Positions 791-15,132 of a stretch of 64,000 bases of DNA are shown here, piece after piece. Under the pieces are notes generated by a model. That model ran no database searches. It worked only from the letters and a program-made list of their open reading frames with translations, and was not told the DNA's origin. The DNA is from Nitrososphaerota archaeon (GTDB lineage Archaea; Thermoproteota; Nitrososphaeria; Nitrososphaerales; Nitrosopumilaceae). Position numbers and translations under genes: made by a program. How positions within the stretch are numbered: position 1 is the stretch's first letter; each line of letters starts with the position of its first letter. Location: assembly GCA_013288545.1 (NCBI GenBank), contig JABDBR010000003.1, positions 1-64,000 on the forward strand. The letters are read 5' to 3'.

Positions 791-2488
791 TCAATAATAG
801 TGATGAGATGGTCGTTGCATCTTACCAAGCTTGTCAAAATGATCATGAGCTTGATTTCCTCTTGCATGAGAATGTGTTTTGCCATCACTATGAGTATGAG
901 TATACATTACAGGTTTTTTCATGACAACCTCATCTACGCGTATTAGCAATGATGCTACCTCAGCAGCTGTTTTTATTACCTGTTCCTTGACTACAAGAGG
1001 TTCAATAACATCTTGTGAATACATTTCTCGAACTTTTCTTTCAATTGCATCTACTCCATACCATGAATGAATGCGTCCGTTGTTGTGTGTAGAGTTTTTA
1101 TTTCTTAACTGAACAATGGTATCAACTACATTCATTCCAGAATTTCTTGCAATTGTTAGTGGAATTTCTTCAAACGCCTCAGCAAAATTTTGAATTACAA
1201 TCTGTTCTTTTCCTTCAATTAAGAGTGATCTTTTTCTAAGCTCATTTGCAATGATTATCTCAGTTGAACCTCCACCAGCTACTACAGATGGATGCATAAA
1301 GAAATCTTTGAGAACTGTTATAGCATCAAGTACCGTACGATGGTATTCATCAAGCATTCTCTTTGAATTTGCTCGTAATAGTATAGTTACTGATTTTGGA
1401 TTTTTGCATCCTTCTACAAATACCATTTTATCATCACCCACAAATTTTTCATAAACTTTACCTGCAAATCCCAGATGTTTTTCAGATATATTGTCAAGAT
1501 CATTCATTATTGAAGCACCAGATGCTTTCTCCAACCAATGAATATCATTTTCTTTTACTCTACGAAGTGATATTATGCCTGCCCTAGACAGGTAATTTTG
1601 AGCCGATCGATTAATTCCCTTCTGGGAAACCACAAGATTTGCGCCTGAATCGATTATCTTTTGAACTTTTCTCTTTACATCATCACTTTCTTTTAAAATG
1701 TATGCTTGCATTTCTTGTGGAGAGCTAATTACGATCTCTGCGTCAGTCTTGGTTCTCTCATCATCAAGCTCTACATTAATTAGAAGAACCTTAGAATTTT
1801 CAATCAACCTAGGCATTCCAGAATAATCTATTGTTTTATCAATGACCACTCCTTGTACCAATTCAATATCTGAAGTATTACCGGGTTTTTCTTCGATTTT
1901 GATATCATCTATTTCAACTTCCCTATTTACAAAATCTGCAATTGTACAAAATGCATCAGTTACTAGTTTTGCTATAGATTTGTTTTCACCTAACACAGAG
2001 ATTGCCTTTGTTCGCAAACATGTTTCAGCTAACTTGAGCATAACTTCTTTATTTGTATAGGTAGAAACTTTTGCAATTGATCTTACAATATCAAGGGAGT
2101 ATTCAGCTGCTTTCCTGTATCCTGCCTCAATTGTAGAAGGTGATACGCCTAAATCCAATAACTTTTCTGCCTTTTCAAGCAAAGAACCAGCTAAAATAAC
2201 TACAGATATTGTTCCGTCTCCAACCTCATTGTCAACGGAGTTTGAAGCATCTATCATTACCTTGGCAGCAGGATGTTCAACATCGATTTTACGCAACATT
2301 GTAGAACCGTTCTTTGTCAGAGTAGCCTCACCCAAAAGATCAATGTAGATTTTTTCAAATCCCCTGGGTCCAAATGAAGTTTTAATGAGATCAGCAATCA
2401 ATTTTCCAGCAAGTAAATTGTATCTTCGTGTTTCTTCCCCTACAGAGAATTGTGTACCCTCGCCAAGTAAATCTCCTGTAGAACTCAT
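791..2488 (-). CDS. divergent thermosome (group II chaperonin) subunit with His-rich tail
   Basis: 565 residues, full family length, with equatorial, intermediate and apical regions. Seen: GPRG (40-43), the nucleotide motif GDGT (90-93), VVAGGGSTE in the second equatorial half. At the position where thermosomes have TNDGAT this protein has TKNGST, so the aspartate usually credited with a role in hydrolysis is Asn60. Instead of the common GGM-repeat tail, the last 36 residues carry eight histidines (THTH, THSH, AHDH, SHH). It lies 73 bp after ureD in the same direction but has its own TATA box. The family call is certain. A nickel or urease-related role is inference from the tail and position; a general heteromeric thermosome subunit is the alternative. 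Confidence 0.9.
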   Translation of the reverse strand: MSSTGDLLGEGTQFSVGEETRRYNLLAGKLIADLIKTSFGPRGFEKIYIDLLGEATLTKNGSTMLRKIDVEHPAAKVMIDASNSVDNEVGDGTISVVILAGSLLEKAEKLLDLGVSPSTIEAGYRKAAEYSLDIVRSIAKVSTYTNKEVMLKLAETCLRTKAISVLGENKSIAKLVTDAFCTIADFVNREVEIDDIKIEEKPGNTSDIELVQGVVIDKTIDYSGMPRLIENSKVLLINVELDDERTKTDAEIVISSPQEMQAYILKESDDVKRKVQKIIDSGANLVVSQKGINRSAQNYLSRAGIISLRRVKENDIHWLEKASGASIMNDLDNISEKHLGFAGKVYEKFVGDDKMVFVEGCKNPKSVTILLRANSKRMLDEYHRTVLDAITVLKDFFMHPSVVAGGGSTEIIIANELRKRSLLIEGKEQIVIQNFAEAFEEIPLTIARNSGMNVVDTIVQLRNKNSTHNNGRIHSWYGVDAIERKVREMYSQDVIEPLVVKEQVIKTAAEVASLLIRVDEVVMKKPVMYTHTHSDGKTHSHARGNQAHDHFDKLGKMQRPSHHYY

Positions 2489-2561: not shown

Positions 2562-3467
2562 TTATGCAATATCTATTGATGAGTTGTGAATTGTAGATTC
2601 CATCGAGTGATTTTTTTGGGTAAAAGATCTAAGAATACTAGTGACATATTCTGTCAGATCCACGATTTCAGAGACAGAATCAGCGAGCATTCGTACAATA
2701 ATACCAGAATTATGCGGCAGAGTAGAGCAACTAGCCAAAAAAGATGTGTTTTGCACAGCCAAATTGATCTTGTCTGTAATCATTTCCACAGGTATTGAAC
2801 TGCCAATTATGTAAATGGTAGAAAAGACATCTTTTCCTCCAAACAGGGATTCAAGATTTATCTTGTCTTTATGACTCAGGTTCATGACATCTGTAAAGAG
2901 CATCTGGCCATTTCTATGGGCCGAAGTACGAAGAAAACAAAGATCAAAATCAAACTTTTCACCAGATGCAATACGACCTGCAGATATGATCTCTGAATAG
3001 ATTAGAACTGCATTCTCTTCAACCTCAAGATTTACTTCTTGATAAAATCTAGATGATTTGAATGGAATAATTTGATGTGGAACAAATTCTAGATAGCTTT
3101 TTTCTTGACTGCGTATGTTAATGTATTGAGAAGCATAACCACCATCCATCTTGTAAACTTTGGTTGCCGATTGAGTAGTGATTTTCGCTGTAGAGTTTTT
3201 TCCCATTACAACATCAATTTTCTGCTCATCCCCTTGTAGAATACCTCCAGAAGATGACATCATGTAGATATGAGCAAAATGCGGATAATCGGAATCTGGG
3301 TACATTGCTTTTTGAATCAAAAATGGTGCTTTTGACAATAATGATTTGATATATGTTTTAGAATCATCGTTTGCTTGAAGTTCTATTTGTATAATACCAT
3401 TTTGACCTGGCATTTTAAATTTTTTATTTACATAATTCTTGAAGATATCTGGAATTTGTGAATTCAT
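2562..3467 (-). CDS. ureD: urease accessory protein UreD (UreH)
   Basis: Scaffold on which UreF and UreG dock to deliver nickel to apo-urease. The 301 residues match the UreD family in length and pattern: SSSGGILQGDEQKIDV near residue 70, ITTQSATKVYKMDGG, and a LEFVPHQIIPFKSSRFYQE segment typical of the family. Last gene of a four-gene run ureE-F-G-D; its start overlaps the end of ureG by 4 bp (ATGA type), so translation is probably coupled. All subunits and accessory genes needed for a classical Ni urease are present in this locus. Confidence 0.95.
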   Translation of the reverse strand: MNSQIPDIFKNYVNKKFKMPGQNGIIQIELQANDDSKTYIKSLLSKAPFLIQKAMYPDSDYPHFAHIYMMSSSGGILQGDEQKIDVVMGKNSTAKITTQSATKVYKMDGGYASQYINIRSQEKSYLEFVPHQIIPFKSSRFYQEVNLEVEENAVLIYSEIISAGRIASGEKFDFDLCFLRTSAHRNGQMLFTDVMNLSHKDKINLESLFGGKDVFSTIYIIGSSIPVEMITDKINLAVQNTSFLASCSTLPHNSGIIVRMLADSVSEIVDLTEYVTSILRSFTQKNHSMESTIHNSSIDIA

Positions 3468-4180
3468 CTTTTTTGATCCTTTTTGATAATTGGTTTTTTG
3501 TCAAACAGTATTGATTTGATTATGTTTTCAGCAACATCTTCTATGCCTTCACCTGTTTGGCAATTAACAAATACGTAGGGTTTTTCTGCGCGCATTTTTT
3601 TTGCATCTCTTTTCATTATAGCAAGATCTGCACCTACATGTGCTGCAAGATCAATCTTATTGATTACAAGCAAATCACTGCTTTCTATTCCCAATCCACC
3701 TTTTCTTGGATACTTGTCTCCTCCAGCTACATCTACGATGTAGATGAAATAATCTGCAAGGGCAGGACTAAAGGTAGTCATGACATTATCACCACCACTT
3801 TCAATTATAATCAAATCAAGACTAGGATCTTTCTTTTCTATTTCATCAATAACAGCCAAATTTATTGTTGGGTCTTCGCGTATTGCAGTATGCGGACAAC
3901 CTCCAGTGGCTATTCCTATAATCATATTTTCAGGCATAACTTTTAGCTCTGTAGACAGTATTCGCTGCATTCGTTCTGCGTCTTCTTTTGATATGACATC
4001 ATTTGATATTATGCAGCATCTGTAACCTCTTTTTATCAAGATGGGTACCACCCTCTCAATCAAACGTGTTTTTCCCGATCCTACAGGCCCACCAATTCCA
4101 ACCTTTGGTATTTTCTTATTTTTTAGGGTCAAATCCATCTCCAAATTATGTGATAAACATTTTTGAGACATCATGCTCAT
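3464..4180 (-). CDS. ureG: urease accessory GTPase UreG
   Basis: GTPase that carries and delivers nickel during urease maturation. Counting from 4180, the P-loop GPVGSGKT is at residues 31-38, the nickel-binding CPH motif at 95-97, then IIIESGGDNV and the guanine-specificity NKID motif. The upstream part overlaps ureF by 35 bp and is not family-like; the Met at 4138 (MDLTLKN, 7 bp after the ureF stop) is a better start and gives the normal length of about 224 residues. No histidine-rich N-terminal tail is present, unlike many UreG/HypB proteins. Confidence 0.95.
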   Translation of the reverse strand: MSMMSQKCLSHNLEMDLTLKNKKIPKVGIGGPVGSGKTRLIERVVPILIKRGYRCCIISNDVISKEDAERMQRILSTELKVMPENMIIGIATGGCPHTAIREDPTINLAVIDEIEKKDPSLDLIIIESGGDNVMTTFSPALADYFIYIVDVAGGDKYPRKGGLGIESSDLLVINKIDLAAHVGADLAIMKRDAKKMRAEKPYVFVNCQTGEGIEDVAENIIKSILFDKKPIIKKDQKR

Positions 4181-4862
4181 GAATCATTTGAAAAATATCT
4201 GTTAGAGGTGTAAGCTGCCAAATATTGTATAATGGTTCTTTTTTAATTGTACTAGAAATTATATTTATTTTATCAGAAAGTTTTGTAAGAATTTTTTGGC
4301 CACTTATGTGATCTATTATCCCCAACTTGATTGCAGCAGCTATGACACTCTGGCTAAATGAATAAAGCATCATTCGTATCCCACTTTCTGAAGGAATTCT
4401 CAGTAGAGTCATAGCAATTCCTAGACAAACAGGATATGTTCCAACAGTTTCATTTGATTTTATTTTCATTTGAAACTCCTTTGCAATTTTAGTTTCCTTC
4501 TTGTCAAGCGTCATTTGAATTACACAATTCAATATCTGAGAGCCAGATCTGACAGATGTATTTCGTGCTTCTTTTATTAATCTCATAGAATAAAATTTGT
4601 TATCTGCCTCTACAAGCTCTTCAATATTTTCATTCTTTGCAGCATCCATGGCAATCAAGAAAATCATACAGTCACAAGTTGTGAGTTGGAATTCTATTTG
4701 TTGTTCAATAAAATTTAAAATGTCTTGTTCATTTTTTATTCTACCATGTTTTACAAGAGATTCTAGACCGTTGGACAATCCAAACATGCCAGAGGGGAAG
4801 AATGAATCGGCTAACTGCATTAAAAAAAACTCGTGATTAGTGCTCATGTAGGTATATTCCAT
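4146..4862 (-). CDS. ureF: urease accessory protein UreF
   Basis: UreF forms a complex with UreD and gates UreG's GTPase activity during nickel insertion. The N-terminal LADSFFPSGMFGLSNGLE (from about residue 16) matches the family's D-x-x-FP-x-G-x-x-x-S-x-G-L-E signature, followed by the all-helical body. The start at 4862 overlaps ureE by 26 bp; the Met at 4847 (MSTNHEF) is an alternative that shortens the overlap. The length, about 234-238, is normal. Confidence 0.93.
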   Translation of the reverse strand: MEYTYMSTNHEFFLMQLADSFFPSGMFGLSNGLESLVKHGRIKNEQDILNFIEQQIEFQLTTCDCMIFLIAMDAAKNENIEELVEADNKFYSMRLIKEARNTSVRSGSQILNCVIQMTLDKKETKIAKEFQMKIKSNETVGTYPVCLGIAMTLLRIPSESGIRMMLYSFSQSVIAAAIKLGIIDHISGQKILTKLSDKINIISSTIKKEPLYNIWQLTPLTDIFQMIHEHDVSKMFIT

Positions 4863-5349
4863 GTTGAGGTTGAAAAATCTGTTCCTCTACCTTAATCTCT
4901 ATATTATTTATGATGTGGGATAGTAGTTTCTTAAATACATCAACTTCAGAATCTGCTTGAATTGGAAAGAAAAGAACATCATCTTTTATCACAATGGGTT
5001 TGTGTCGGTTTCCTATGACATGACCCAGAGTAACTAGCCCAACTGAATTGTCATTTAATTTTCTAATTTTTATAGAAATAACTTTCTCAGGCAATTGTTC
5101 AATTATGATGAATTTTTTGAGATTAGACACGATGACATCACCATGATGTAGTCTTGTGCCAGAATCAAGAATAAGGCCTATATCTGTGCCTAGATCCGTT
5201 TTCTTTCTAATCCTACTTCTTTCTGTCTCTAGGCGTGATATTTTTAATCTCTCACAAATTTTTTGAGATTCCATTTTATTGAATTTGGCCAATAATTTTT
5301 TGTCATCAAAAATGTTTCCCAGTATGGATGTGACTGTAAGCATAATCAT
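4837..5349 (-). CDS. ureE: urease accessory metallochaperone UreE
   Basis: Dimeric nickel chaperone that loads UreG. The HVIGNRHKPIVI stretch contains the conserved interface histidine of the family, and FQPQHGIYLHEH ends the protein. The C-terminus has only a few histidines, so the long poly-His nickel store seen in some bacterial UreE proteins is absent here. First gene of the minus-strand ureEFGD operon; the ATG at 5349 directly abuts one arm of the inverted repeat in the divergent promoter. Confidence 0.9.
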   Translation of the reverse strand: MIMLTVTSILGNIFDDKKLLAKFNKMESQKICERLKISRLETERSRIRKKTDLGTDIGLILDSGTRLHHGDVIVSNLKKFIIIEQLPEKVISIKIRKLNDNSVGLVTLGHVIGNRHKPIVIKDDVLFFPIQADSEVDVFKKLLSHIINNIEIKVEEQIFQPQHGIYLHEH

Positions 5350-5434
5350 CTAAGATCATACTATGAAGTTATATTTTTTGATCTTAGTAATTTATTATAA
5401 ATAATAAATACAAGAAGCTACAATAGGTACAGAT
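5350..5434. promoter_or_regulatory. divergent ureE / ureA promoter with inverted repeat
   Basis: 86 bp separate the two urease operons. CTAAGATCA (5350-5358) and TGATCTTAG (5379-5387) form a perfect 9-bp inverted repeat with a 20-bp spacer. For ureE the arms flank the TATA-like AAATATAA on the minus strand, and the right arm also sits just upstream of the ureA TATA region (TTATTATAAATAA, about 5391-5403). A regulator bound here could control both operons. Wide-spaced repeats of this kind resemble those used by nickel regulators of the NikR type, but no regulator is identified. Confidence 0.6.
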
Positions 5435-5737
5435 ATGATGCTTACTCCTAGAGAAATTGACAAACTGTACATTTTCATGGTAGCAGAAGTTGCAAGAAAA
5501 AGAAAATCAAGAGGATTAAAACTAAATTACGTAGAAGCGCTTGCGCTCATTGCAGATCACATAGTAGAAGGAGCTAGAGATGGAAAATCTGTTTCAGATC
5601 TTATGAGTTCAGGAAGAAAAGTGTTAACAAGAGATGATGTTTTACCCGGCGTACCTGAGTTGATCAAGACAGTACAAACTGAGGCAACCTTTGAAGATGG
5701 AACTAAACTTGTTACTGTTCATGATCCCATAGTATAG
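5435..5737 (+). CDS. ureA: urease gamma subunit UreA
   Basis: Smallest structural subunit of urease. 100 residues, starting [13 protein letters not shown] and containing [23 protein letters not shown] and the [12 protein letters not shown] motif, as in bacterial UreA. It is a separate gene, not fused to UreB as in Helicobacter. One base separates its stop from the ureB start. The upstream Met at 5435 (MMLTPRE) or the second Met both fit. Confidence 0.97.
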
Positions 5738-5738
5738 C

Positions 5739-6110
5739 ATGATCCCAGGAGAATATTTCTTAAATGACATGCCCATCATTGCAAACAAAGGTAAAAAGAC
5801 AGTAAAGGTCAAGGTCAGCAACTCTGGAGACAGGCCAATACAGGTAGGCTCACATACACATTTCTTTGAAACTAACAAGGCGCTTGTCTTTTCTCGCAAG
5901 AAGGCATATGGTCATCATTTGAACATCCCATCAGGAACATCAGTAAGATTTGAACCTGGAGATACAAAGGAGATAGAACTAACAGAATATGGAGGTCTAA
6001 AAATAGTGTATGGATTCAATGGTCTTGTTAATGGCAAACTTGCTACTAGAAAACAGATTGCACTGCAAAAAATGCGAAAAAAGGGATTCAAAGATGGTAA
6101 TCAAAAATGA
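5739..6110 (+). CDS. ureB: urease beta subunit UreB
   Basis: Structural beta subunit. MIPGEYFLN at the start and the [20 protein letters not shown] strand-loop, [16 protein letters not shown] and the [10 protein letters not shown] end are all family hallmarks. 123 residues, slightly longer than the usual 100-110 because of a basic C-terminal tail ([17 protein letters not shown]). Start overlaps nothing; its stop overlaps ureC by 4 bp (ATGA), so the three subunits are translationally coupled. Confidence 0.97.
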
Positions 6111-7819
6111 CATTGGTAATCCCTAGAAAACAATACGTAGATCTGTATGGTCCTACCAAGGGTGACAAAATTAGACTGGCTGATACTGATCTCATAATTG
6201 AAATCGAAAAAGATTTTCAAAATTATGGAGATGAGATAGTTTTTGGTGGCGGTAAAAGTGCTAGAGATGGAATGGGGCAAGCAAGTGGTGTCACTAGTAA
6301 AAATTCACTTGATCTAGTCATAACAAATGCAATTATCATGGATCCCGTTCTGGGAATCATAAAAGCAGACATTGGGATCAAAAATGGTCTGATATCTGGA
6401 ATAGGTAAAGCAGGTAATCCAAATGTCATGGACGGAATAGACATGATAATATCTGCAAATACTGAGGTGATGGCAGGCGAGCACACAATATGCACTCCCG
6501 GAATAATTGATACTCACATTCACTTTATTGCTCCACAACAAGCAATAGATGCAATTTGTAGTGGAACAACAACAATGATCGGAGGTGGCACTGGACCTAC
6601 CGATGGAACTAAAGCAACAACATGCACTCCAGGTCCTTGGAATATTCATAGAATGTTAGAAGCTCTTGATGAATTGCCTCTAAATTTTGGTCTACTTGGA
6701 AAAGGAAATGATTCCCTAGAGCCTGCATTATTAGAACAGATTGCTGCAGGTGCATGTGGTTTGAAACTGCACGAAGATTGGGGCACTACTCCTGCTACTA
6801 TTGATGCTGCATTACGTGTTGCAGATAAAACTGATACTCAGGTAGCTATCCACACAGACACGTTAAATGAATGTGGTTTTGTGGATGATACGATTGAAGC
6901 AATAGGCGGAAGAGCAATCCATACTTATCATACCGAAGGAGCTGGTGGTGGACATGCACCAGACATTATGAAAATAGCAGGTCACAAGAACATTCTTCCT
7001 TCATCTACAAATCCAACAAGACCATTTACAGTCAACACTCTAGATGAGCATCTAGACATGATGATGGTTTGTCATCATCTCAATTCCTCAGTAAAAGAAG
7101 ATGTAGCATTTGCAGAGTCAAGAATCAGAGGTGAGACAATAGCTGCAGAAGACGTACTGCATGATATTGGTGCCCTAAGCATGTATTCTTCAGATAGTCA
7201 AGCAATGGGTAGGGTCGGAGAAGTAAGCATCAGGGCATGGCAAACAGCTGATAAAATGAAAAAAATGTCTGGTCGCCTAGTAGAGGAAACAGGAGAAAAC
7301 GATAATCTTCGTGTAAAGAGATATCTTTCAAAACTTACCATCAATCCGGCAATAACACATGGGATATCAGATTATGTTGGTTCTCTAGGGCCAGGCAAAT
7401 TAGCTGACATTGTAATGTGGTCTCCAGAATTTTTTGGTGTAAAACCTAAACTTGTGATAAAAGGTGGATTTGTTGCCTATTCAGTTATGGGAGATCCTAA
7501 TGCATCCATTCCCACCCCAGAGCCAGTATATTATCGCCCAATGTTTGGTGCAATGGGTAAGGCCACGCATACGACATCTGTAACTTTTACTTCAAAACTA
7601 GCAATACAGAATGGTTTATCAAAAAAATTAGGTTTGAAAAAGAAATTGCTTCCAGTAAAAAATTGCAGAAATATTGGTAAGAAAAATATGCTTTACAACA
7701 ATGCAGTTCCAAAAATAGAGATTGATCCTGAAACTTACAGAGTCACAGTTGATGGAAAACTAGCTACAACAGAACCATCGCAAAAATTGTCCATGGCCAG
7801 ATTATATCATTTATTTTAG
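6107..7819 (+). CDS. ureC: urease alpha subunit UreC (catalytic)
   Basis: Hydrolyses urea to ammonia and carbamate at a di-nickel centre. All metal-site residues are visible: HIH at 137-139, the carbamylated lysine K220 in [10 protein letters not shown]249, H275 in [13 protein letters not shown], and the aspartate in [12 protein letters not shown]. The flap motif MVCHH with its cysteine is intact. 570 residues is the standard length. The stop codon overlaps the first copy of the GTTCGA palindrome. In an ammonia oxidiser this enzyme supplies ammonia for energy as well as nitrogen. Confidence 0.98.
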
Positions 7820-8251: not shown

Positions 8252-8773
8252 ATGCCTAGTCAAGGATATGGAACCATAGGACTAAAGCCTGCAATCATAT
8301 CTACACTACAAAAGTCCACGGATGAATATTATCCAGGAATGTTTCTTCCCAGTGCCTTGATAATCATGATGAATGAAATAAAACGAGAATATTACGAAGT
8401 TGGAATGCACAACATAAAGATCGACTTTTCAGGACGATACACATCATTGACAGTTAGATCAGACGTTAAAATATGGTTTGAGGAAAATTATAAGATATTA
8501 AAAGAAAAATATGAAAAAAAATACAAAGCAAATAACTTTACAAAATTTGCAAGTATCTTCATGCTCAACATATTTGAATCCAAAGCAGTCTCACAGAATA
8601 ACATTATCAAATTAAAGGAGGCAGACTTTAACTGGTTAAAATCAGAATATAGTCAAAGAAAAAAAGAATATGAGCTAAAATATGGCATAAGAACATTCGA
8701 GCAGTTTGCAGACATGTTCTTAAAGGAATTATTAGAAAGAATCAATTCCGCAAAAAAAATACTGTCATTATAA
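8252..8773 (+). CDS. hypothetical protein with internal duplication
   Basis: 173 residues. After an N-terminal part beginning MPSQGYGTIGLKP, two helical units resemble one another: residues about 72-112 (W-F-E-E-N-Y-K, EKYEKKY, F-x-K-F-A-S-I-F) and about 128-167 (W-L-K-S-E-Y-S, KEYELKY, F-E-Q-F-A-D-M-F). The unit looks like a helical hairpin used for dimerisation or DNA/protein contact. No catalytic motif seen. It stands alone between AT-rich intergenic stretches with a TATA-like sequence before it. Confidence 0.75.
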   Translation: MPSQGYGTIGLKPAIISTLQKSTDEYYPGMFLPSALIIMMNEIKREYYEVGMHNIKIDFSGRYTSLTVRSDVKIWFEENYKILKEKYEKKYKANNFTKFASIFMLNIFESKAVSQNNIIKLKEADFNWLKSEYSQRKKEYELKYGIRTFEQFADMFLKELLERINSAKKILSL

Positions 8774-9300: not shown

Positions 9301-10050
9301 GTGAAGATCAAAAACATTCCCCTCAAGCTCATAGATATTGCAGATGAAAATGTTCGAAAAGACCATCCTTTTGGTGAAGACTCTAGAGACCAATTAATTA
9401 AGGATCATTTGTCCAAGTTTGAATTATTACAACCAGTAGTTGTCAGATTTGATAATGCAAGCAAGAGATACAAGCTGCTCATAGGCCGCAGAAGATTTTT
9501 GTCACTAAGTGCAAAAGGAACAAGAGAGATACCTGCAGTGATAACAGAACTCGAGGGTGCAGAAGCGGAAGCAGCTTCTTTGTTTGAGAATTTAATTCGT
9601 AAAGATCTACCACCAATTGAAAAAGCAAAAATGGTAAGAAAGTTAGTTGACTCGACCCAATCAGGCATTACCGGCGTATCGAAAAAATATGGATTGTCTA
9701 AAAGTACAGTAAGCGAATGGTTAAGCGTTTTGACATTAGCAGAACCATTGCAACAAGCATTAGAGAGTGGCGAAATAACACTTTACGAAGCAATACAGAT
9801 TGCAAGAAAGCCAAAGGTACTACAAGAAAAATTGGTTAATGCAGTATCAGAAGGAAGACTTCAAGAAGTAATGATAAAAACCGGAGTAAAGCGCGGAGCG
9901 CCAAAAGGTCTTTTGACTATACGTCTTGTTTTTAATCCAAAGAAGAAATTTGATAAAAAAATGTGGGATCAATTAAATGATCAAGCCTCTCAAAATGGAT
10001 TAGAGGTTACAGATTATGTTAAAAATATACTCACAAAGCGTCTTAACTAG
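9301..10050 (+). CDS. ParB/Spo0J-family DNA-binding protein
   Basis: 249 residues with GTG start. N-terminal ParB domain (about 1-110) includes GRRRFLSL at 62-69, matching the GERR-type CTP-binding box, and ENLIRKDLPPIEKAK at 96-110, the second conserved box. A helix-turn-helix follows (GVSKKYGLSKSTVSEW, about 125-140). The C-terminus (VFNPKKKFDKKMWDQL to the end) lacks an obvious classical ParB dimerisation tail and could be a short ribbon-helix-helix-like segment. No parA is adjacent. It may be a chromosomal partition factor or a ParB-type transcription regulator. A perfect GTTCGA-CAA-TCGAAC palindrome starts on its last base. Confidence 0.85.
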   Translation: MKIKNIPLKLIDIADENVRKDHPFGEDSRDQLIKDHLSKFELLQPVVVRFDNASKRYKLLIGRRRFLSLSAKGTREIPAVITELEGAEAEAASLFENLIRKDLPPIEKAKMVRKLVDSTQSGITGVSKKYGLSKSTVSEWLSVLTLAEPLQQALESGEITLYEAIQIARKPKVLQEKLVNAVSEGRLQEVMIKTGVKRGAPKGLLTIRLVFNPKKKFDKKMWDQLNDQASQNGLEVTDYVKNILTKRLN

Positions 10051-10607: not shown

Positions 10608-12203
10608 CTAAACAGGTCCTTTTTTATTGGTACTAGAAATTTGTCTTACGTCTATAGGACTAGTCCATTCCTCAACACTGGCTCCGCTAACCACATCTGC
10701 ATCACTTGGAATAAGATAAACCACATCGTGTCTTGGCGGTGTTCTTTTTTGTGTTGCCAGGCTAACTAGTATGAATACTGCTAATGATATGAGCGGAGGA
10801 ATCATTGTATCAAGTCCACCATATTGGTAGTAGGGACTATCAGACGGGGCGATAGTTATGACAAAGAATAAGATTAATCGTACTAGAGAACCTACTACAA
10901 TTGATGCAATAGCACCAGATGCTGTTGATTTTTTCCAAAAGGTTCCAAAAACTAGAGGAACGAGGCATCCTGCTAAAACAATATCAAATGCCAAGACAAG
11001 ATATGCACCAGGTCTTGGAATGAGATAACCTAATGCAAAGGCGGTAAAGAACATTGGGATCACAAAGAGTCTTGTTGCAACAAGCAATTGTCGATCAGTC
11101 AGTTTTGGTCTCTTGAGTAACTTTGCTATAATATTTCGTTGCAACATGTTTCTAGACAATACACTTGCTATAGCTAATGTGCCACCATTAGCAGTAGACA
11201 TACCACAACTAACTGTACTTACAAGCATCAGGATACCAATTACTGCAGGTACATGTTTTATTGCTATAATTGGGTACAGAGTATAAGGATCAGAAAGCTT
11301 TGGCTCTAATGTAAATCCAATAATGCCTACCATTGTTACAGGTATTAGGATCAGGAGGGTTATTCCAGCACCCATGTAACAGCTCTTTGTTGCGGTACGG
11401 CCTCCGTCTGCTGCAAATACTCGCTCCATAAAGTCTAACGCTACAATATCTCCTAATCCTAGTGATATTATTGCAGCCCAGTTTATCAGAGCCCCACTAC
11501 CTACATTGAGTAAGCCTGACATGTCCATGAATCCAGCAGGAGCATTTGCCACTATAGTGTCCAATCCACCAGGAATTGGAGACCATGGCCCTATGAAGAA
11601 CAAAAAGCCTGCCCAAAATCCTACCACAGCTAAATAGATGTGGAAGATGTCTGTGTATGCGCAAGAGAATAGTCCTCCAAAATACGTATACAGTAAAACA
11701 ACTGCAGTTGAAATCAACATTGCATAAATTAATGGTATTCCCAATACTACTGATAAAATATATCCACTTGCTGCAAGGTTACCAGCAACAAGAACTATGA
11801 AACTGACTGCCATGACAGTTCCAGACATTACTTCAGTAGTGTTTCCATATCGTCTATAGTAGAAATCTGCAAGTGTAATCATGTTCATACGGTTAAATCG
11901 TTTTCCAAAGAATAATCCAGTCAACACAAGACAAATAGCTAGACCCATAGGAATGACAGCGCCTCCCCAAAAACCACCAGTAAATGTTAACGCGACGTTT
12001 CCAAGAGATGCATTGCCATCAACTGCTTCTGACACAAGCATTGTACCGATGAAGAAAAGCGGTAAACTTTTTCCAGCAACAATGTATCGTTTGCTACTTT
12101 TCTTGACAAATTTTACTGCAATAACTCCAATGAATGCGGTTACACCAACAAATGCCATGACGATGATTGGATAATAAAGCGGAATTGCGTCAACCATCCA
12201 CAT
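10608..12203 (-). CDS. SSS-family sodium:solute symporter, DUR3-like urea transporter
   Basis: 531 residues with about 13 hydrophobic membrane segments. Family features include the GKSLPLFFIGTMLVSEAVDGN region early on, LADFYYRRYGN, and YTYFGGLFSCAYTDIFHIYL in the middle. Thaumarchaea that carry urease usually carry a DUR3-type SSS transporter, and the urease locus is 2.8 kb away, so urea is the likely substrate; sequence alone cannot exclude another small organic solute. The ATG at 12203 lies 10-27 bp after a TATA stretch, and two TTTCGACA direct repeats lie just upstream of it. Confidence 0.85.
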   Translation of the reverse strand: MWMVDAIPLYYPIIVMAFVGVTAFIGVIAVKFVKKSSKRYIVAGKSLPLFFIGTMLVSEAVDGNASLGNVALTFTGGFWGGAVIPMGLAICLVLTGLFFGKRFNRMNMITLADFYYRRYGNTTEVMSGTVMAVSFIVLVAGNLAASGYILSVVLGIPLIYAMLISTAVVLLYTYFGGLFSCAYTDIFHIYLAVVGFWAGFLFFIGPWSPIPGGLDTIVANAPAGFMDMSGLLNVGSGALINWAAIISLGLGDIVALDFMERVFAADGGRTATKSCYMGAGITLLILIPVTMVGIIGFTLEPKLSDPYTLYPIIAIKHVPAVIGILMLVSTVSCGMSTANGGTLAIASVLSRNMLQRNIIAKLLKRPKLTDRQLLVATRLFVIPMFFTAFALGYLIPRPGAYLVLAFDIVLAGCLVPLVFGTFWKKSTASGAIASIVVGSLVRLILFFVITIAPSDSPYYQYGGLDTMIPPLISLAVFILVSLATQKRTPPRHDVVYLIPSDADVVSGASVEEWTSPIDVRQISSTNKKGPV

Positions 12204-12627: not shown

Positions 12628-13194
12628 CTAAGACTTCATTTTCTTTAGTTTACCAAAAAGTAACGGATCTAACTTTCTTGCAGTATCAAAACTTCTTTGT
12701 GATTCATTTTCTTTTCCCAGCATAGACAATCCGCGACCCTTGTTGTACCACGCTTTTGCGTACTTTTCATTGATTTCTATGGCTTTGTTGAAGCATTCAA
12801 CTCCTTCTGCAAGCCTTCCTAATTTCAGGAGCGTCAATCCTTTGTTGTGCCATGTTATAGAATTAGATGAATCAATCTCTAATGCCCTAGAAAATGATTC
12901 TAATGCTTCATTTTTTCGCCCCTTTTTATCCAACATCAAGCCACGATCCCCCCAGGCAAAATCATTTTCTGAGTTCATTTCTATAGCCTTGTTGAAGTAT
13001 TCAAGGGCTCTGTCATAATGCCGATCGTTGGCAAGATCTTCTCCCAATTGTACCAACTCTTCTGAAGCTTCTTTTCTGGAAGCTTTTTTGTACTTTACTG
13101 GAAGAACTACTGGCTGATTTTTCTTAAACCAAGAAAATATCATACCATGATTATGTAGCACACTATGATTTAAATTAGTATTTACGAAAAACAA
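12628..13194 (-). CDS. tetratricopeptide repeat protein
   Basis: 188 residues with at least three TPR units: EDLANDRHYDRALEYFNKAIEMN, then DKKGRKNEALESFSRALEID and LLKLGRLAEGVECFNKAIEIN motifs in register every 34 residues. A further degenerate unit follows (GKENESQRSFDTARKLD). Mets at residue 18 (MIFSWFKK) may be the true start. A protein-protein scaffold; partner unknown. Confidence 0.85.
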   Translation of the reverse strand: MFFVNTNLNHSVLHNHGMIFSWFKKNQPVVLPVKYKKASRKEASEELVQLGEDLANDRHYDRALEYFNKAIEMNSENDFAWGDRGLMLDKKGRKNEALESFSRALEIDSSNSITWHNKGLTLLKLGRLAEGVECFNKAIEINEKYAKAWYNKGRGLSMLGKENESQRSFDTARKLDPLLFGKLKKMKS

Positions 13195-13554: not shown

Positions 13555-13600
13555 TTAGACAAATTTAAGTATATACTAACACAATACTAAAGTGATTAAT

Positions 13601-14716
13601 ATGGGTGCAGAATTTTATGGAGAATCATACAGGGGCAACGACGAACCAATTTTTGTAGGCATTCCTACGTTCTTGAAATTGCCTTTGCTCAAAAATAAGG
13701 CAGAGCTGGAAAAAGTGCGTCCAGATGTTGCCATAATAGGTGAACCTTTTGATTTTGGTACAACTATTAGACCAGGCGCAAGATATGGGCCTAGAGCTAT
13801 AAGAGCAGCTTCAACAGTGCCATCTCCTCCGTACGAGCATTTCAACATCGAAACAGGTGTTGATCCATTTGGAGTTTTTAAAACAGTTGATTATGGAGAT
13901 GTGAATATTGTACCAGGCGACGTGGTAGAATCCCACAGGAGAATGACTGACAAAGTTAAAGAAGTATTAGATATTGACGGCATTCCTGTCATGCTTGGTG
14001 GTGATCATTCCATCACTTTTGCAAACGTACGAGCCTTTGCAAAGAAGTATAAAAACATAGGAATGATTCACATCGATACGCATGCTGACTGTGCACCACA
14101 GGGTCTATGCGGTTTCAAGTATGACCATGGAGCACACATTAGAAGAATAATGGAATTAGGATGTCTAAAAGGAAAGAACTACACTCTAATTGGACCTCGT
14201 GGATACTGGCCAGGCCCAGATCTATACAAGTGGATGGCAGATCAAGACTTTCAATGGTTCACTATGCTTGATGTAGAAGAGTTAGGTATAGACAGAATTG
14301 CCAAGGAAGCAGCAGACAGAGCTAATGACAATGTAGATGCAGTGTACATTAGTTGGGACATTGATACATTTGACCCAGCATATGCTCCAGGAACTGGAGA
14401 GCCAGAACCAAACGGACTCACCTCCCGAGAAGGAATGAGATTGATGAGATTACTTTCATCCTCATTTGATCCAGACAAGTTTGCTTTCGACTTGGTCGAA
14501 GTAGCCCCCAACTATGATGTAAGTGATGGTAATTCATACAGCGGCGGAATCACTTCAGGGCTTGCAAATCGTTTGATAGTAGAGCTCTTAGCTGGACTAT
14601 CACTCACAAAGAAGGGAGAGACTGAAGGCAGACCAGTAAGACCAAAATCTTATCGCGGTACAGGGAACACGTACAGCTTTGGCAAACCCAAAGCCCAGAT
14701 TCCAAAAAGAAATTGA
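13601..14716 (+). CDS. ureohydrolase (agmatinase/arginase/guanidinase family)
   Basis: Binuclear-metal hydrolase that splits a guanidino group, usually releasing urea. All metal ligands are seen: H in GGDHS (136), D-x-H-x-D in IDTHADC (159, 161, 163) and D-x-D in SWDIDTFDPAYAPGTGEPEP (253, 255). The C-terminal DLVEVAPNYD is also typical. At about 370 residues it is clearly longer than ordinary agmatinases (about 300), with an N-terminal extension and an insert around GPRGYWPGPDLYKW. Longer members of the family include Ni-dependent guanidine hydrolases, so guanidine is a candidate substrate beside agmatine or a guanidino acid. ATG 13601 is preferred; an in-frame GTG is at 13592. Urea made here could feed the nearby urease. 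Confidence 0.88.
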   Translation: MGAEFYGESYRGNDEPIFVGIPTFLKLPLLKNKAELEKVRPDVAIIGEPFDFGTTIRPGARYGPRAIRAASTVPSPPYEHFNIETGVDPFGVFKTVDYGDVNIVPGDVVESHRRMTDKVKEVLDIDGIPVMLGGDHSITFANVRAFAKKYKNIGMIHIDTHADCAPQGLCGFKYDHGAHIRRIMELGCLKGKNYTLIGPRGYWPGPDLYKWMADQDFQWFTMLDVEELGIDRIAKEAADRANDNVDAVYISWDIDTFDPAYAPGTGEPEPNGLTSREGMRLMRLLSSSFDPDKFAFDLVEVAPNYDVSDGNSYSGGITSGLANRLIVELLAGLSLTKKGETEGRPVRPKSYRGTGNTYSFGKPKAQIPKRN

Positions 14717-15132
14717 TTAGAATTGAGGTCTTGATAGAGGGAGAGCCAGACATTCTTCCCTCTATCAAACTCTTTGAATTCAAAGATGAGGATGAGGCAA
14801 TTTTTCTCAATGTCATAGAAATGGTCAAAGACAAGCTCTCAAGAAATTTGAGGCTAAACACTCATGAAACTTTACATGTATTTTGTGCATACATTGTTAG
14901 TGAGATTCGTTCAGGAAAATCAGAATCGCAAATCATAGACAATTCATCAAAAATTTTAACGAGTGATAATGTTTTGTTCGGAGTACCAGAAACCTTAAGA
15001 CAAATTACGTTCAATACTACTGTGGATAATTTGCCAAAAAGGGTAATTCGATTCACTAAACCGATTCCAATTATGAATTACATAATGAGAGATTCTAAAA
15101 CCATTGGGATAACCTGTGAGAAACAAAGATAA
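14713..15132 (+). CDS. urease gamma subunit (UreA)-like protein
   Basis: 139 residues; the TTG start overlaps the ureohydrolase stop by 4 bp. Residues about 30-120 align without gaps with UreA from 5435: 23 of 59 positions are identical by hand, including L-x-L-N-x-x-E-x-L, IV, R-x-G-KS and LT-x-D-x-VL-x-GVPE. It has an N-terminal extension of about 35 residues (IEVLIEGEPDILPSIKLFEFKDEDE) that true UreA lacks. No UreB or UreC copy accompanies it. It is therefore a UreA paralogue tied to the ureohydrolase; an assembly, metal-delivery or docking role is inference. Confidence 0.8.
   Translation: MIRIEVLIEGEPDILPSIKLFEFKDEDEAIFLNVIEMVKDKLSRNLRLNTHETLHVFCAYIVSEIRSGKSESQIIDNSSKILTSDNVLFGVPETLRQITFNTTVDNLPKRVIRFTKPIPIMNYIMRDSKTIGITCEKQR

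Follow-up and report, generated by a model that had tools for sequence, protein, structure and literature searches.

The analyzed window is a stretch of 64,000 nucleotides from contig 3 of an ammonia-oxidizing archaeal (AOA) genome (1.39 Mb, 85% complete). It harbors a gene for a ureohydrolase (UH), which is directly followed by a gene for a protein resembling the urease gamma subunit UreA (UreA-like protein, UAL; Table 1). The closest named relative found for UAL stems from a Candidatus Nitrosotalea MAG. The initial annotation had placed a UreA-like open reading frame of 139 residues at position 14713, overlapping the ureohydrolase stop by 4 bp, and these coordinates proved correct. The overlap reads TTGA, with TTG as the start codon of UAL, and this start is supported by the relatives of UAL, which begin at the identical position, frequently with ATGA. 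For UH, an in-frame GTG at position 13592 is an alternative upstream start, but the relatives of UH too begin with M-G-x-E-F-Y-G. UH and UAL are probably located on the same transcript.

UH is adjoined by a gene for a sodium:solute symporter (SSS), and SSS transporters were present in 48 of 60 loci according to neighbor clustering. A complete urease locus (2562-7819) is situated 7-12 kb upstream of UAL, with ureDGFE on the minus strand and ureABC on the plus strand. The earlier statement that UAL has no UreB/UreC partners therefore holds for its immediate operon, but not for the window. The window further encodes a thermosome paralogue with a His-rich C-terminal tail (HT). Three other genes of the window recur in UH neighborhoods as well: homologues were obtained for a protein without Pfam match in 42 of 60 neighborhoods, for a stand-alone ParB-like protein in 25 of 60 and for a TPR protein in 41 of 60.

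Table 1. Position of the features discussed in the text within the 64,000-nucleotide window
Feature	Position	Strand	Length	Basis
Thermosome paralogue with His-rich C-terminal tail (HT)	791..2488	-		Cpn60_TCP1 E=4e-147
ureD, urease accessory	2562..3467	-		ureDGFE cluster position and homologous matches in other urease loci
ureG, nickel GTPase	3464..4180	-		sequence and homologous matches in other urease loci
ureF	4146..4862	-		sequence and homologous matches in other urease loci
ureE	4837..5349	-		sequence and homologous matches in other urease loci
True ureA, urease gamma	5435..5737	+		PF00547 E=7.7e-45
ureB	5739..6110	+		sequence and homologous matches in other urease loci
ureC, catalytic subunit	6107..7819	+		relatives in 148/400 genomes
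5_ureB_sRNA match	6261..6548	-		Rfam, 49 bits vs 40
Protein without Pfam match	8252..8773	+	173 aa	
Stand-alone ParB-like protein	9301..10050	+		ParB_N + HTH
Sodium:solute symporter (SSS)	10608..12203	-		PF00474 E=3e-24
TPR protein	12628..13194	-		
Ureohydrolase (UH)	13601..14716	+	371 aa	Pfam Arginase E=3.1e-79
UreA-like protein (UAL)	14713..15132	+	139 aa	Pfam Urease_gamma E=4.5e-11

The kinship of UAL with UreA, which had been suggested from an alignment by hand, was confirmed by a profile search, as UAL scored 43.4 bits against the Pfam model Urease_gamma (PF00547) at a cut-off of 23.9. Significant matches were also obtained with UreA of K. aerogenes (solved chain, E=4.4e-8) and with the window's own UreA (35% identity, E=3e-11). 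UAL was modelled with AF2 (AlphaFold) at a pLDDT of 89, with the final 14 residues disordered, and the best 18 fold matches of this model in the PDB were all ureases (TM ≤0.80 by target length). UAL is a real UreA homologue and a second, additional UreA-type protein. In a phylogenetic tree UAL was monophyletic (support 100). The copy of a family f3 genome (locus L119) branched just outside the remaining UALs (support 79) and had a higher UreA score (72.5 bits), as expected of an early branch after duplication.

UAL retains the core UreA motifs LxLNxxE, VxxGVPE and PI and carries an additional N-terminal beta hairpin (residues 1-23), which is absent from UreA. Among 46 UreA-invariant positions, defined as at least 95% conserved in AOA UreA, 26 were lost and 9 were kept. 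In addition, UAL remained below the cut-offs of the urease-gamma equivalogs (TIGR00193, 37 vs 82.3 bits; NF009712, 40.9 vs 123). Given that a full urease locus is present and most UreA-invariant residues are lost, UAL is not an ordinary urease subunit. UAL might still be exchanged for UreA as an alternative gamma subunit, thereby altering urease activity, since it shares the fold of UreA and the lineages that encode it carry urease with few exceptions. However, a true UreA is encoded in addition, its invariant residues are lost in UAL, the scores of 37-41 bits fall short of the equivalog cut-offs of 82-123, and UAL is the neighbor of the ureohydrolase, while the true ureABC genes lie separately at 5435-7819, which makes such a function highly improbable.

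Conserved pairing of UAL with a ureohydrolase was observed when the genes were listed for 400 sampled genomes from the order. Each of the 75 clear UAL copies (73 genomes; copies counted above 45 bits) was located within about 70 bp of UH. UH was found in 92 of the 400 sampled genomes and was 79-100% identical, partial copies included (genomes were counted at ≥79% identity, or ≥77% for shorter pieces at contig ends). An adjacent UAL was present in at least 77 of these 92 genomes if the weaker UALs of G002, G084, G252 and G264 are counted in, which is a lower bound as some other UH genomes break at contig ends. Among 60 neighborhoods analyzed, a set chosen partly by UAL hits, 54 contained UAL. 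The linkage spans many genera and several families, also where urease is distant. When 84,980 species genomes were scanned with the GVPE-centered pattern V[ML][IF]GVPE[TS][LI][RQ], which divergent forms elsewhere would escape, 50 loci were obtained, all from archaea of the ammonia-oxidizer lineage except for one labelled just 'archaeon'. The accessible text of the open-licence literature searched yielded no description of UAL or of the His-tailed chaperonin.

UH without UAL was verified in six genomes (G107, G116, G149, G214, G260 and G317), and in the six UAL-less UH loci examined (L103-105, L110, L114 and L122) the active site of UH was intact. As these six lineages keep UH without it, UAL is not obligatory and appears to be helpful rather than essential.

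The dN/dS of UAL (0.12-0.25) indicated purifying selection and thus a functional protein, with UH being under stricter selection (0-0.04). Across nine loci, the mean identity to the window was 48% for UAL, 53% for UreD/E/F, 82% for UreA, 85% for UreC and 87% for UH. UAL therefore diverges like UreD, UreE and UreF and unlike UreA, UreC and UH, as is typical of an accessory protein. A different possibility is that UAL belongs stably to a UH oligomer as a structural or regulatory subunit, for example to stabilize or gate it, and plays no part in metal insertion. The strict adjacency and the overlapping reading frames fit such a stoichiometric partner, and heteromeric ureohydrolases exist (metformin hydrolase), but the far faster divergence of UAL compared to UH and the six lineages in which UH has an intact active site without UAL render this somewhat unlikely. 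Fast evolution of UAL would also agree with an unrelated role, such as that of a substrate or nickel sensor or of an inhibitor, merely co-transcribed with UH. Since the linkage to UH is kept across several families, even with urease at a distance, we regard this explanation as unlikely.

UH belongs to the arginase/agmatinase (ureohydrolase) superfamily, and two further arginase-family matches were obtained elsewhere in the same genome. All six metal ligands (H136, D159, H161, D163, D253 and D255) are present and invariant in 54 sequences, in which 59% of the UH residues are invariant. Many ureohydrolases use manganese, which counts against nickel in UH. Guanidinobutyrase, cyanobacterial and comammox guanidinase and proclavaminate amidinohydrolase matched UH about equally. 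Assignment as an agmatinase was unsupported, as the score against the agmatinase equivalog TIGR01230 (156.1 bits) was below the cut-off of 174.3. A guanidinase of the GdmH type was rejected: with respect to the GdmH specificity residues Thr97 and Trp305, UH keeps the threonine (Thr55), but the tryptophan is missing and replaced by Glu267 (53 of 54 sequences). An Rfam gathering search of the window's first 20 kb revealed no guanidine riboswitch, the 5_ureB_sRNA match of Table 1 being its sole hit. Structure prediction of UH with AlphaFold from 26 sequences yielded a pLDDT of only 59, and the model was discarded. In a published screen, no genes for guanidine degradation were detected in AOA (PMC11410670). 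The available part of a study on AOA of the NS-delta clade describes the expression of an 'agmatinase (SpeB)' whose gene forms a cluster with that of an SSS transporter (PMC11131427); this agmatinase is probably the same protein as UH.

UreC was encoded in 57 of 59 high-quality UH-containing genomes, the two exceptions being fragmented MAGs. Among nine closed genomes, four (G165, G247, G041 and G049) have ureC more than 90 kb away from UH and UAL, which are still found together. If UAL docked UH on UreB/UreC, a metabolon that passes urea on to urease would be formed. The almost constant presence of urease in UH-containing genomes and the core UreA motifs kept in UAL are compatible with this arrangement; however, the separation of the genes in these four genomes and the loss of 26 of 46 UreA-invariant positions make it quite improbable. 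With regard to ureC itself, two genomes of family f8 (G083 and G086) contain two ureC types each, about 83% and 71% identical to that of the window. The 5_ureB_sRNA match antisense to ureC (Table 1) is probably due to coding-sequence similarity to H. pylori ureB.

HT is a paralogue of the group II chaperonins (thermosomes), and the ATPase motif GDGT is present in HT of the window and in 32 His-tailed relatives. It shares 43-44% identity with both canonical thermosomes that this genome encodes. While the tails of the latter are G/M- or G-rich, the HT tail (consensus THTHxDGxxHSHxGGxxxHDHFDxLGKxQRPxHHYY) contains eight histidines that are invariant across 17 aligned sequences. The tail profile was found in 89 of the 400 genomes, and chaperonin homologues were present in 38 UH loci. 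Among 87 high-quality urease-containing genomes, 53 encoded both UH and the tail, four only UH, one only the tail and 29 neither of them (within-genus permutation P=5.7e-13, a value in which relatedness inside genera is still contained). The distance between the tailed chaperonin and UH was at most about 10 kb in nine closed UH genomes. Because HT is found near UH while ureC is more than 90 kb off in four of them, HT belongs to UH and not to urease. This link between the chaperonin and UH is new in this analysis. A function of HT as a nickel-handling chaperonin is possible.

A His-rich NicO-like membrane protein (PF03824, E=4e-6, slightly under the cut-off; DsbD_2, 5e-8) is encoded directly downstream of UAL or UH in 23 of 60 loci. 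The pair lacks a NicO-like neighbor in the window and in its nearest relatives; a NicO is encoded elsewhere. Judging from coordinates, NicO-like transporters are also located near urease in some genomes without UH, so that such transporters may serve urease. A search for HypA in 14 UH genomes gave zero matches over the cut-off, which leaves UreDEFG as the known nickel-insertion machine at hand. In the cryo-EM structure of the urease activation complex, UreD is mainly bound to the alpha subunit, with beta and gamma flanking (PMC10121161), and a gamma-like piece alone may not suffice as a dock. The loss of 26 of 46 UreA-invariant positions in UAL also counts against the docking reading.

Taken together, the conserved AOA set of UH, UAL and HT looks like a dedicated and undescribed assembly set for UH, probably one related to nickel. 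We propose, with a probability of roughly 0.4, that UAL is a UreA duplicate turned into an accessory protein of UH, and that the three proteins, often joined by a NicO-like transporter, constitute a module which yields active UH loaded with metal by docking of UreDFG. UAL would offer a urease-like docking surface, imitating urease for UreDFG, and UreE, UreG, UreF and UreD, already present for urease, would load nickel into UH, while the His-tailed chaperonin would help to fold or metallate it. UH might then release urea for urease, and the resulting ammonia would feed ammonia oxidation. The full chain, in which the UreA paralogue recruits UreDFG to UH, a dedicated His-tailed thermosome folds and metallates it and a guanidino compound is converted via urea to ammonia as an undescribed energy route in AOA, would represent an additional kind of nickel-enzyme maturation but appears rather doubtful as a whole. 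The initial annotation had envisaged a new complex, either as a dock for nickel insertion or as a channel between urea-making and urea-splitting enzymes. This view withstood two of the conditions named for its refutation, as the UreA match proved significant and the pairing with a ureohydrolase turned out to be conserved across many genera. The nickel dock gained circumstantial support from the NicO-like genes, the co-occurrence of HT, the HypA search and the UreD/E/F-like rate of UAL. A fixed complex or urea channel became less likely, given the rapid divergence of UAL relative to UH and the lineages that have UH without UAL.

The set is a conserved multi-gene unit of nitrifiers that abound worldwide in soil, fresh water and the sea, and its parts go by unremarkable family names (arginase/agmatinase, urease gamma, thermosome). 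Provided that the nickel-based reading is true, the fold of a urease subunit would have been reused as a maturation adaptor, a chaperonin would carry a metal-handling tail, and AOA would use an organic nitrogen compound that is not yet among their listed substrates.

Several known systems share features with this locus. Like UreA (PF00547), UAL shows a significant sequence match to the family, the same fold and the motifs named above, but it is coupled to a ureohydrolase instead of ureB/ureC, scores below the equivalogs and has an N-terminal hairpin. HspA of H. pylori, a GroES with a His-rich tail, exemplifies the His-rich nickel chaperones. HT too is part of the chaperonin system, has a C-terminus rich in histidine and occurs near nickel enzymes, with the difference that it is an archaeal group II chaperonin (thermosome) paralogue. 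For the 'agmatinase (SpeB)' cluster of AOA, the available part of the report mentions neither UAL nor the His-tailed chaperonin nor a NicO link (PMC11131427). The metformin/dimethylguanidine hydrolase operon comprises hypA, hypB, two ureohydrolases and hupE (PMC11399263). It resembles the UH locus in combining ureohydrolase and accessory genes, in the nearby urease and, for part of the UH loci, in a downstream nickel transporter, whereas the UH locus encodes one catalytic ureohydrolase and HypA was not found in the 14 UH genomes. Precedents for a nickel-loaded ureohydrolase are GdmH and metformin hydrolase, both activated by dedicated chaperones (PMC11399263, PMC12186494), although the comammox guanidinase locus has no nickel chaperones nearby (PMC11410670). 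With GdmH of Synechocystis and the comammox guanidinase, UH shares the ureohydrolase family, strong matches, the retained guanidinase threonine and the putative feeding of urea to urease. The UH locus differs from the GdmH operon in that UAL and the His-tailed chaperonin are found in place of its nickel chaperones.
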